From the NCBI GenBank assembly GCA_022486705.1, contig JAKVKC010000006.1, positions 1 through 64,000 on the forward strand: a stretch of DNA of 64,000 bases, written 5' to 3'. Below are positions 18,922 through 62,722 of the stretch, piece by piece. Origin of the DNA: Solobacterium sp. (GTDB lineage: Bacteria; Bacillota_I; Bacilli_A; Erysipelotrichales; Erysipelotrichaceae). The first letter of the stretch is position 1. Every line of letters begins with the position of its first letter. The notes beneath the pieces are model-generated. The model saw nothing but the letters and a program-made list of their open reading frames with translations, searched no databases and had not been told where the DNA came from. A program made the position numbers and the translations under genes.

Positions 18922-18963
18922 TAAAAGACCTTCTGCGTACTATCCCATATCGCTGAAGGTCTC
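18922..18963 (-). terminator. Attenuator of the guanine riboswitch
   Basis: Minus-strand stem AGACCTTC / GAAGGTCT followed by TTTT, between the aptamer and the permease gene. It would form when the aptamer is occupied. Confidence 0.85.
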
Positions 18964-18975
18964 GCTTAAAAGATT

Positions 18976-19042
18976 CGTCGTAGTCCCGTTATTAAGGTAA
19001 CAGGGTAGAGACACTTTCGCCAATCCGAAAGCATATACGATA
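18976..19042 (-). ncRNA. Guanine (purine) riboswitch
   Basis: Purine aptamer on the minus strand. P1 is TCGTA/TACGA. P2 is CTTTC/GAAAG with a loop containing TTGG. The core is TCTACC. P3 is CCTGTTA/TAACGGG with loop CCTTAA, whose CC can pair with the GG of the P2 loop. The 3' junction reads GACTACG, and the C of ACTACG is the residue that selects guanine or hypoxanthine over adenine. An attenuator follows, so ligand binding should stop transcription. Confidence 0.9.
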
Positions 19043-19056
19043 TGAAGGATGTTCCT

Positions 19057-19087
19057 ATTATACCTTACAGATCCAAATTCGCTCCAA
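19057..19087 (-). promoter_or_regulatory. Promoter of the purine permease
   Basis: Minus-strand -10 TATAAT at 19057-19062, about 15 bases before the aptamer. A weak -35 TTGGAG (19082-19087) has a 19-base spacer. Confidence 0.5.
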
Positions 19088-35085: not shown

Positions 35086-35454
35086 ATGATCAATTGTCTA
35101 TGTGTAGGAATAGGAGGATTTCTTGGCAGTGTATGCCGTTATCTGGTCGGACTGATCCCCCTAAAGGAACAGACATCTTTTCCCTTTAAAACATTTGCCA
35201 TCAATATTGCCGGTGCTTTTCTGCTTGGTCTTCTTTCTGCCTATGCCGCCAAGAATCCCAACACCAGTCCGCGCCTTCTGCTTTTATTGAAAGTCGGTGT
35301 ATGCGGCGGTTTTACGACTTTCTCTACCTTTGCCTATGAATCGACTTCTTTATTCACCGATGGCAAATCAGCCATTGCTTTGACCTATGTTCTATTGAGC
35401 ATCACCTTAGGCATCTTAGCGGTCTATGCTTCTCAGCTGATCATTCATTCCTGA
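35086..35454 (+). CDS. crcB: Fluoride channel CrcB/FluC
   Basis: 122-residue small membrane protein with four helices that exports fluoride as a dual-topology dimer. Signature residues are GGFLGSVCRY near the start, the Asn in FAINIAGAFLLG and GGFTTFSTF carrying the Phe gate residues. Only one copy is present, whereas many Firmicutes have a tandem pair, so this one should form a homodimer. No fluoride riboswitch is seen upstream. Confidence 0.93.
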   Translation: MINCLCVGIGGFLGSVCRYLVGLIPLKEQTSFPFKTFAINIAGAFLLGLLSAYAAKNPNTSPRLLLLLKVGVCGGFTTFSTFAYESTSLFTDGKSAIALTYVLLSITLGILAVYASQLIIHS

Positions 35455-41991: not shown

Positions 41992-42258
41992 CAAAAAACA
42001 CCTGTCCTATTGTTAAGGACAGGCGTATATGTCTGCGGTACCACCTTAGTTAAGAGATCTCTCTCTTCTCTCTGTATGAAAATGCAATCACATTTTCTGT
42101 CTGCTAACGCTGACACTGCGTCCTGAAGTACTTGCCGAAGCTTTCATCAGGCCCTCATGGGTCCATTTGCATATCTCATCACTGCCAGGTCTCACCATTC
42201 CCTGTACTCTCTGAAAGCTGCTGATATGTTTGATCTCCCACTCATTGGTTTGGGTATG
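41992..42258 (-). ncRNA. T-box leader, tryptophan (UGG specifier)
   Basis: Minus-strand T-box. Stem I has base TGGG/CCCA, helix CATATC/GATATG, the AGAGAG bulge and the distal hairpin CAGG...CCTG. The specifier loop reads GCAAATGGACCC, with UGG at 42163-42165. Stem II carries TGAA/AGTA between CCTGA and TCAGG. The antiterminator GGTGGTACCGC is at 42035-42045. The terminator is CCTGTCCT / AGGACAGG with TTTTTT. Uncharged tRNA-Trp should turn the importer on. Confidence 0.9.
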
Positions 42259-60115: not shown

Positions 60116-60131
60116 AGAAATCCTGTATACA

Positions 60132-60213
60132 GTTCCCTCCGTTGGCATTATCCAAATCAGGTATATGGGTCGAAGGTCATACCTTCCTCTCAGCCTGTCA
60201 TACAAGCTCCCCT
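60132..60213 (-). ncRNA. TPP riboswitch
   Basis: Minus-strand THI element: GGGGAGC, GCTGAGAGGA, GACCC, ACCTGAT, TGGATAATGCCAACG and GGAGGGAA in the standard order. With the terminator that follows, TPP binding should stop transcription of thiM-thiE-HAD-thiD-cytX. Confidence 0.97.
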
Positions 60214-60228
60214 AATGATCGTATTCAG

Positions 60229-60317: not shown

Positions 60318-61331
60318 TCAGAACTTGTTTGCTTTGGCAGCTTCCTGGATAGCAACTGCTACCGAGACACTGGCACCGACCATAGGGTTGTTGCCCATAC
60401 CGATGAAGCCCATCATCTCGACGTGTGCTGGAACAGAGGAGCTTCCGGCAAACTGCGCATCGCTGTGCATTCTGCCCATGGTATCGGTCATACCGTAGGA
60501 AGCAGGACCTGCGGCCATATTATCTGGATGCAGTGTTCTTCCTGTGCCGCCGCCGGATGCTACAGAGAAGTACTTCTTGCCCTTCTCCCAGCATTCCTTC
60601 TTATATGTACCTGCAACAGGGTGCTGGAAACGTGTTGGATTGGTCGAATTTCCGGTAATGGAAACATCAACGCCTTCCTTCCACATAATAGCGACGCCCT
60701 CACGGACATCATCTGCACCATAGCAGCGTACTTTTGCACGCTCGCCCTTGGAATATGGTGTTTCAGATAAGATATGCAGTTCTCCTGTATAGTAGTCGAA
60801 CTGTGTCTCAACATAAGTAAAGCCATTGACTCTGGAAATGATCTTAGCAGCATCTTTGCCTAAGCCATTCAGAATGACCTTCAATGGTTCTGTACGAGCC
60901 TTGGAAGCATTCTTAGCAATACCGATGGCACCTTCGGCTGCGGCAAAAGACTCATGTCCAGCTAAGAAAGCGAAGCACTTGGTATCATCATCCAGCAGCA
61001 TCGCTGCTAAGTTGCCGTGTCCTAAGCCGACCTTGCGGTCATCAGCGACAGATCCGGCAATGCAGAAAGCCTGCAGGCCTTCGCCCAATGCCTTCGCAGC
61101 TTCTTTAGCTGTGCGGGCATTCTTCTTGATAGCAATTGCTGCCCCAACGGTGTATGCCCAGCATGCATCATCAAAGCAGATCGTCTGGATCCCTCTGACC
61201 ATGCCGGCAGCGTCAACACCTGCATCATCACAGATCTTCCTGCATTCCTGTACATCCTTGATGCCATACTGCTTTAAAACTGCGTTGATCTTGTCGATAC
61301 GACGCTCATAATTTTCAAATAGTTCTGCCAT
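60318..61331 (-). CDS. GGGtGRT protein
   Basis: 337-residue protein of the family named after its conserved GGGTGRT loop, seen here in SVASGGGTGRTLHPDN near residue 270. Many conserved glycines and a DDACWAYTVGAAIAI segment are present. Biochemistry is unknown. In anaerobes it is repeatedly found beside the NifU-like scaffold gene, as here (12-base gap), so a role in Fe-S handling is inferred. GGAGGAGAAC precedes the ATG. Confidence 0.85.
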   Translation of the reverse strand: MAELFENYERRIDKINAVLKQYGIKDVQECRKICDDAGVDAAGMVRGIQTICFDDACWAYTVGAAIAIKKNARTAKEAAKALGEGLQAFCIAGSVADDRKVGLGHGNLAAMLLDDDTKCFAFLAGHESFAAAEGAIGIAKNASKARTEPLKVILNGLGKDAAKIISRVNGFTYVETQFDYYTGELHILSETPYSKGERAKVRCYGADDVREGVAIMWKEGVDVSITGNSTNPTRFQHPVAGTYKKECWEKGKKYFSVASGGGTGRTLHPDNMAAGPASYGMTDTMGRMHSDAQFAGSSSVPAHVEMMGFIGMGNNPMVGASVSVAVAIQEAAKANKF

Positions 61332-61343
61332 GGTGTTCTCCTC

Positions 61344-62036
61344 CTATTCATGACGAGGGTCAATAACTTTGACAGCCTCATCATAACGTCCGTATCTTGA
61401 TTTGTTCTTGGCCAATGCTTCATTGGCATCCATGCCGCTCTTGACTGCTTCCATGAACTTGCCCATATTGACATATTCATAGCCGATGATCTCATCATTT
61501 TCATCCAGAGCGATCTTATTGATATATCCTTCGGCAAGCTCCAGGTATCTAGGTCCCTTTGCCTTTGTGCTGTAAACAGTACCGATCTGCGAACGGATGC
61601 CCTTGCCCAGGTCTTCCAGGCCAGCGCCGACATTCAGTCCATTTTCAGAGAAAGAAGACTGGGAACGTCCGTAAGCGATCTGCAGGAACAGTTCTCTCAT
61701 TGCTGTGTTGATTGCATCGCAGACAAGGTCTGTGTTCAAAGCTTCCAAAGCTGTCTTGCCGACAATTGCTTCTGAAGCCATGGCTGCTGAATGCGTCATG
61801 CCAGAGCATCCGATCGTCTCGATCAATGCTTCTTCAATGATGCCCTGCTTGATGTTCAGTGTCAGTTTGCATGCGCCCTGCTGAGGTGCGCACCAGCCTA
61901 CACCGTGTGTCAAACCGGAAATATCTTTGATCTCTTTGGAATATACCCATTTTCCTTCTTCAGGAATCGGGGCACATCCATGCTGTCCGCCGCAGTGGAC
62001 TTTGCACATGTTCTCTACTTCTTTTGTGTAATCCAT
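61344..62036 (-). CDS. NifU-like iron-sulfur scaffold protein
   Basis: 230-residue homologue of the IscU/NifU N-terminal scaffold. The cysteines lie in CKVHCGGQHGCAPI, VGWCAPQQGAC and IGCSGMTHSAAMASE; the last matches the IscU active loop. The N-terminal Cys-rich extension distinguishes it from housekeeping SufU. The start is ATG 62036 with AAAGGAGGAC. It leads the GGGtGRT operon behind a long structured leader. Confidence 0.82.
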   Translation of the reverse strand: MDYTKEVENMCKVHCGGQHGCAPIPEEGKWVYSKEIKDISGLTHGVGWCAPQQGACKLTLNIKQGIIEEALIETIGCSGMTHSAAMASEAIVGKTALEALNTDLVCDAINTAMRELFLQIAYGRSQSSFSENGLNVGAGLEDLGKGIRSQIGTVYSTKAKGPRYLELAEGYINKIALDENDEIIGYEYVNMGKFMEAVKSGMDANEALAKNKSRYGRYDEAVKVIDPRHE

Positions 62037-62079
62037 ATGTCCTCCTTTTGACATTTGAATTGGAATCTCCCTCACTGAA

Positions 62080-62133
62080 ACAAAAAGCTGATGCATTCTG
62101 TATTCATAAAACAAAATACAGAAGTCATCAGCT
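62080..62133 (-). terminator. Attenuator upstream of the NifU-like gene
   Basis: Minus-strand hairpin AGCTGATG...CTGTATT / AATACAG...CATCAGCT followed by TTTTTG. CTGAAAC and GTTTCAG extend the stem beyond the T-run. Confidence 0.85.
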
Positions 62134-62182
62134 GTTTCAGCAGTTCAGGATCTCTCCTAGGGAGAACTTCATTCCCTGCCAT
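62133..62182 (-). ncRNA. Unidentified structured leader (possible riboswitch)
   Basis: Minus-strand RNA with GCAG/CTGC closing a three-way junction of AGGGA/TCCCT and AGGA-gaga-TCCT (GNRA-like loop). It is followed at once by a terminator whose 5' arm starts inside the 3' side of this domain. The layout is that of a ligand- or protein-controlled attenuator. I cannot match it to a known class. Confidence 0.5.
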
Positions 62183-62216
62183 TAGAATATCATAAGTGAG
62201 ACAAAAAGAAATATAA

Positions 62217-62342
62217 TTATTTGCTTTGACCGCACTCCGTGATCCTCTCAGCTGCATATAATGGCAGGTTGATCAGCCATGTTTTGCCAACTTGTCTCCC
62301 GCCCTTGCGACAAGAGGCATGAGGTCCTGCAAATCTTTCCAT
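62217..62342 (-). pseudogene. Fragment of an AAA-type ATPase (RQVGKT family)
   Basis: 41-codon frame whose centre GGRQVGKTWLINL has a Walker A loop and the RQVGKTWL signature of the AAA_14/DUF4143 ATPases. Nothing of the remaining about 350 residues is present, so it is a remnant at most. It lies in the gap upstream of the NifU leader. Confidence 0.4.
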
Positions 62343-62409
62343 AACTTTAGTTCACATTTTTATGCACGAACTTTTGAATGAATCATACACTTTTATGCAC
62401 GAAGTTATG
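62340..62409. repeat. Inverted repeat enclosing two direct repeats
   Basis: CATAACTT (62340-62347) and AAGTTATG (62402-62409) are exact inverted copies. Between them TTTTATGCACGAA occurs twice (62357-62369 and 62391-62403), 34 bases apart. This could be the end of a lost mobile element or an operator cluster. Confidence 0.6.
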
Positions 62410-62449
62410 TTTTGATGTAATAATTTTCAGAAATAATTTTGAAAAATGT

Positions 62450-62478: not shown

Positions 62479-62484
62479 ACTGTT

Positions 62485-62722
62485 ATCTTCGATGAACAAA
62501 AGAGTATTTGATCCTGTCCATCAGCGAGCCGGAACAGAGTGGAAGTCCGGCGGCAACGGGTTCGAAGAAGCGCATTTGGGAGAAGACTTTCTGAACTTAG
62601 AGTAGGAAAGTACGTATACCGGCGTTAACGGAATAGAGCAGGTCAGCAGACAGTATTGCTGGCAATCAGAGTGGTACCGCGATCAAAGTCGTCTCTGGAG
62701 ATATCCAGAAGGCGGCTTTTTT
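62485..62722 (+). ncRNA. T-box leader, arginine (CGC specifier)
   Basis: Stem I base CAAA/TTTG (62497-62500 with 62575-62578), then AGTA (62503-62506) and helix TTTGATCC/GGTTCGAA. The specifier strand is GAAG-CGC-A, with CGC at 62571-62573. The AGCGAG bulge and CCGG/CCGG distal hairpin follow the family plan. Stem II is ACTTTC/GAAAGT with TGAA/AGTA. GTGGTACCGC lies at 62671-62680 and a terminator with TTTTTT ends it. Uncharged tRNA-Arg should induce the importer. Confidence 0.9.

Follow-up and report, generated by a model that had tools for sequence, protein, structure and literature searches.

Fluoride riboswitches usually stand ahead of genes for a fluoride exporter, a Na+/H+ antiporter, MutS, enolase, a pyrophosphatase or similar proteins. 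The mutS gene has been published as one of their targets (PMC2864571), overlap of a terminator with the aptamer is the family's published mechanism (PMC2864571; PMC8752731; PMC13273304), and a linchpin role has been described for A40-U48 (PMC8752731).

The window, which is the whole stretch of 64,000 nucleotides analysed (positions 1 to 64,000 of contig JAKVKC010000006.1, Solobacterium sp.), carries a structured leader on its minus strand, between the start of a T-box leader at 62483 (+) and a NifU-like gene (62036-61344, -). The leader folds at -50.1 kcal/mol compared with a shuffle mean of -32.2 kcal/mol (z = -4.6), and none of 200 dinucleotide shuffles was as good, providing evidence that the leader proposed from the sequence alone is present on this strand. 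A Rfam scan of the whole window identified it as RF01734 (fluoride riboswitch, crcB motif) at 62185-62112 (-), where it scores 44.0 bits (gathering score 34 bits) with an E value, computed over the whole window, of 6.6e-9. The alignment is full length (model 1-64 of 64) and untruncated. The sequence-only reading was right in placing a riboswitch-type attenuator ahead of the NifU-like/GGGtGRT operon, as the RF01734 match and the terminator indicate. It erred in leaving the class unassigned; it had named a scan against RNA family models as a check and a match there as contrary evidence, and the match to RF01734 is of that kind. MicroRNA families also matched here, but far under their gathering scores, and these matches arise from the terminator hairpin. 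The window leader is a real, probably working fluoride riboswitch, a known kind of RNA with an unusual target. The features of the locus are as follows.

62180..62192, minus strand: likely extended -10 promoter element TGATATTCT and transcription start just 5' of the aptamer, read from sequence
62112..62185, minus strand: fluoride riboswitch aptamer (RF01734, crcB motif); Rfam 44.0 bits, 80.9 bits with R1, a covariance model built from the order's fluoride aptamers
62160..62176, minus strand: P1 stem-loop, GGGA 62176-62173 with UCCC 62163-62160 (Rfam alignment; paired in 100% of cells, 30 homologues); its loop contains AUG 62172-62170 and the 5' strand of the pseudoknot
62166..62170, minus strand: pseudoknot 5' strand GAAGU, partner ACUUC 62125-62121; alternating paired versions in homologues
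62147..62158, minus strand: side hairpin AGGA-gaga-UCCU, inserted with respect to the Rfam model; two-sided changes in 4 of 4 pairs, 82% of cells paired
62131..62141, minus strand: P3 hairpin GCUG-aaa-CAGC (Rfam alignment); 90% of cells paired, 2 pairs with two-sided changes
62120..62130, minus strand: conserved 3' segment UGAUG-ACUUC-U, in agreement with the family consensus; UGAUG 62130-62126, pseudoknot 3' strand ACUUC 62125-62121, linchpin U 62120
62082..62133, minus strand: intrinsic terminator, stem 62133-62086 and U tract; fold -24.0 kcal/mol
62040..62046, minus strand: ribosome-binding site AGGAGGA, from sequence
61344..62036, minus strand: NifU-like protein, operon gene 1; weak match to NifU_N that narrowly misses the Pfam cut-off (E 4e-4)
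60318..61331, minus strand: GGGtGRT protein, operon gene 2; PF14057, E 5.8e-193

Read 5' to 3', the RNA consists of P1, the side hairpin, AACUGC, P3, UGAUG, ACUUC and U62120. Among 30 homologues from the order, 93% of cells are paired and 8 of 17 pairs carry changes on both sides; 46 cells are changed on both sides, compared with 15.7 in shuffles, and control structures slid by one to three columns score far lower. The H-type pseudoknot that marks RF01734, joining the P1 loop to the 3' segment, is present. At each of its positions 43-45 of 45 sequences are paired, the middle pair is AU, GU or UG, and the versions GAAGU/ACUUC, GAUGU/ACGUC and GGAGU/ACUCC alternate among homologues.

The three-way junction proposed from sequence alone survives in part. 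Its AGGGA/TCCCT helix is P1 of the aptamer and its AGGA-gaga-TCCT element is the side hairpin, and both pair and vary compatibly in the 30 homologues, with covariation across the order. The outer GCAG/CTGC helix, and with it the junction, is not upheld, being paired in 43% of cells with 0 pairs changed on both sides and doing no better than shuffles. Its supposed CTGC strand is part of an AAC(C/U)GC segment, the GC of which opens P3. P3 and the GAAGU/ACUUC pseudoknot, both absent from that fold, are present. A three-way-junction attenuator class, which requires a conserved outer closing helix, was rejected on the same 43% of paired cells. The window RNA shares with RF01734 the P1 stem, the pseudoknot, P3, a UGAUG-type 3' segment and a terminator overlapping the aptamer; it differs in the covarying side hairpin between P1 and AACUGC, which is common in this order, in having AACUGC in place of the commoner AACCGC, and in its unusual target operon.

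All mapped positions of the fluoride pocket and linchpin (62172-62170, 62130, 62128-62126 and 62120) match the consensus. We take them to correspond, in T. petrophila numbering, to A6, U7, G8, U38, A40, U41, G42 and U48. By analogy with the family, and with the pocket intact, the ligand of the window leader is predicted to be fluoride; the iron, cysteine, Fe-S or redox signal suggested by the sequence-only reading is unsupported.

The terminator stem consists of eight pairs, a small internal loop and ten pairs, followed by UUUUU. The strong terminator proposed from sequence alone is confirmed (-24.0 kcal/mol). It does start at the end of the aptamer, and the aptamer 3' strand is in fact common to both structures. 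Its 5' arm takes in sequence of P3 and of the 3' strand of the pseudoknot, so that the expression platform overlaps the aptamer 3' strand as in RF01734. Because of this overlap the ligand would be expected to turn the genes on, as it does in the family (PMC2864571; PMC13273304), from which the direction of control is taken. Without fluoride, the aptamer 3' strand (AGCUGAUGACUUCUGUAUU) would pair downstream into the terminator, and transcription would stop short of the NifU-like gene. When Mg2+-bound fluoride is present, the GAAGU/ACUUC pseudoknot and a capping A-U pair would lock the 3' strand into the aptamer, no terminator would form and the operon would be transcribed. The leader is very probably a fluoride riboswitch that switches on the NifU-like/GGGtGRT operon by antitermination. 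The putative extended -10 element at 62180..62192 was not detected in a promoter scan; its TATGATATTCTAATG is the same in the sister species, while the flanking DNA differs.

The pairing of this riboswitch with this operon is rare. RF01734 occurs in 57 and GGGtGRT in 47 of 148 genomes of the order, and among 70 genomes of the genus the counts are 26 and 9; by the listed coordinates the two are adjacent, in either set, only in the window species and its sister. A broad link between the riboswitch and the operon was rejected, there being no canonical fluoride riboswitch ahead of NifU-like/GGGtGRT in 80 named loci (0 of 80) and no intact pairing in any further genome with GGGtGRT, whether of the order or of the genus. 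At nearly all other loci in the order, the gene behind the riboswitch encodes a protein of about 390-420 residues; by eye these proteins form one family, one member of which, checked by Pfam, is a Na_H_Exchanger (E 4.9e-43). The riboswitches before these Na+/H+ antiporters have nearly identical aptamer sequences and the same terminator arrangement as the window, but different downstream genes. The antiporter orthologue is absent from the window genome and from the sister, where only paralogues of about 23-28% identity were found. The usual targets, a correlate of the family and not a defining feature of the RNA, are replaced here by NifU-like/GGGtGRT. The literature searched does not name these two genes in the fluoride response, which tells against the proposed switch, as does the confinement of the intact arrangement to two closely related species. 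That search found no link between fluoride riboswitches and GGGtGRT, although the Baker 2012 list of fluoride-regulated genes lay outside its coverage and might include this target. The window leader is best regarded as a known riboswitch with a new target, which would extend the list of fluoride-regulated genes by NifU-like/GGGtGRT.

Remnants of the same arrangement are found in a related genus. R1 was run over the NifU-like leaders of the family, and beyond the two intact copies all six matches with E < 1 fell in the leader, on the coding strand and in one other genus (g4); with the hits treated as independent, position alone would give six out of six with a probability of about 1e-10. Seven of the eight g4 genomes with a NifU-like gene have, by eye, truncated or mutated fluoride-riboswitch pieces in its leader (L194, L196, L200, L202, L206, L207 and L214), mostly unlike one another. 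G114 retains the 5' half only (TGGGAATGAAGTTCTCCCA), and G208 and G228 the 3' half and terminator only; the aptamer is full-length but altered in G223 and shortened in G229, and the pieces in G227 and G098 are more doubtful. L196 and L202 have the terminator half only, adjoining a promoter-like TATGTTAAAAT. Genome-wide, RF01734 matches best at this leader in G223, G208 and G228, in each case below threshold. The pseudoknot partners in the most diverged leaders, L206 and L207, are complementary, but a random 5-base partner occurs within 60 bases about 37% of the time and the complementarity is therefore not claimed. The pieces in seven of eight genomes suggest that the link between riboswitch and operon is probably older than one species, and the simplest reading is that an older link is intact in the window species and mostly decayed elsewhere. 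The riboswitch-linked NifU-like genes do not form one clade in a NifU tree, so gene replacement, transfer and repeated gain are not distinguishable. Leaders of similar layout precede NifU-like genes in RUG246 (L105) and G007 (L009); L105:2347-2441 and the L009 leader have in common ACAGGGAA...CCUUGGG...CCCUAAAGAGCUUCUGGCUAAUA, in a fluoride-aptamer-like layout without the conserved pocket, and the L105 leader received no Rfam call.

A second fluoride-type leader is present in the window genome.

G000:C16:20782-20853, minus strand: second fluoride-type leader (L002 / L222), before rex and two MutS-domain genes (rex-mutS-mutS); RF01734 36.2 bits, order model 71 bits

To our knowledge, rex is not a named fluoride-riboswitch target. 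The presence of a second RF01734 match in this genome, ahead of genes that include the published target mutS, favours the fluoride reading of the window leader. This second leader has the same aptamer layout and a terminator as in the window, but in its P1 loop AAG replaces the AUG that all 44 other aligned sequences share. With this change ligand binding is doubtful, and may be impaired or altered.

These altered relatives bear on two further readings. It is unlikely that fluoride riboswitches of the family were recruited to NifU-like/GGGtGRT and that the leaders of the related genus are evolving into variants with changed pockets, perhaps with an Fe-S-linked ligand. Distinctly unlikely, too, is a fluoride-riboswitch scaffold in the window with a changed ligand, for example another anion or a metal tied to Fe-S metabolism. 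The target genes, unlike the order's usual antiporter, the scaffold pieces with altered pocket positions before NifU in several relatives, and the loss of the near-invariant AUG in the second leader are all consistent with a changed ligand, but every mapped pocket position in the window matches the consensus. The altered relatives, moreover, differ from one another and share no new consensus, which looks like decay.

Decay could also be supposed for the window itself, as a fluoride riboswitch left before a gene that it no longer usefully controls. An apparent precedent is g4, where seven of eight genomes carry truncated or mutated versions ahead of this operon and three have their best RF01734 match in that leader; the comparison with the sister species (G118) makes this very improbable for the window. 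The sister has the same arrangement, and its NifU-like protein is 99.6% identical. Between 62184 and the terminator loop a single base separates the two aptamers, G62179, which lies in the 5' flank and outside the conserved helices (R1 scores 80.9 bits in the window and 78.2 in the sister), whereas changes and indels are numerous in the DNA upstream of the aptamer. The terminator keeps its pairing although its loop has been rewritten and its 3' arm has changed, with a fold of -24.1 compared with -24.0 kcal/mol in the window. A nearly identical aptamer and a terminator whose pairing is kept amid diverged DNA are the pattern expected of a functional switch. A new attenuator class sensing iron, cysteine, Fe-S or redox, to which the gene context and the iron-dependent expression of the homologous Bacteroides operon (PMC10434189) might point, has next to no likelihood given the significant full-length RF01734 match, which refutes it as a new class, and the lack of conservation of the supposed three-way junction.

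NifU/IscU structures are matched by profile to the NifU-like protein with E values of 3e-4 and weaker. GGGtGRT is deeply conserved, its homologues across Firmicutes, Bacteroidota and others being 72-82% identical to the window protein, and we know of no function for it. A sequence search for a related solved structure found none, and comparison of the predicted model (pLDDT 79.7) with the PDB gave no match with E <= 0.001; its structural matches are Rossmann-like and of middling strength at best (Z up to 7.5), suggesting nothing specific on function. A weak NCBIfam hit of GGGtGRT for membrane pyrophosphatase, at 18.8 bits where the cut-off is 1055, was not taken as real. We know of no fluoride response of the homologous operon in other bacteria. 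Iron has been implicated: the homologous operon of Bacteroides thetaiotaomicron changes 11-13 fold (tabulated -12.8 to -11) within an iron-dependent stimulon (PMC10434189), and GGGtGRT is among the iron-affected proteins of Clostridium pasteurianum (PMC5395762). The fluoride riboswitch ahead of GGGtGRT offers a testable hint that the operon may serve the response to fluoride or to accompanying metal or Fe-S damage. The operon could contribute to fluoride tolerance, perhaps through repair or replacement of Fe-S functions.

Other elements of the window include a crcB gene (Fluc-type fluoride channel) at 35098-35430 (+), with no fluoride riboswitch detected ahead of it. An imperfect direct repeat resembling AACTTCGTGCATAAAAGTGT (minus-strand reading) lies upstream of the riboswitch at 62340-62412 and is partly deleted in the sister. 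The T-box leader at 62483-62699 (+; 118.3 bits) is divergent from the operon and precedes an amino-acid-type ABC transporter substrate-binding protein, and another T-box lies at 42012-42254 (-). A purine riboswitch occurs at 18961-19060 (-), and a TPP riboswitch at 60117-60223 (-) is located just downstream of GGGtGRT, before apparent thiamine genes.
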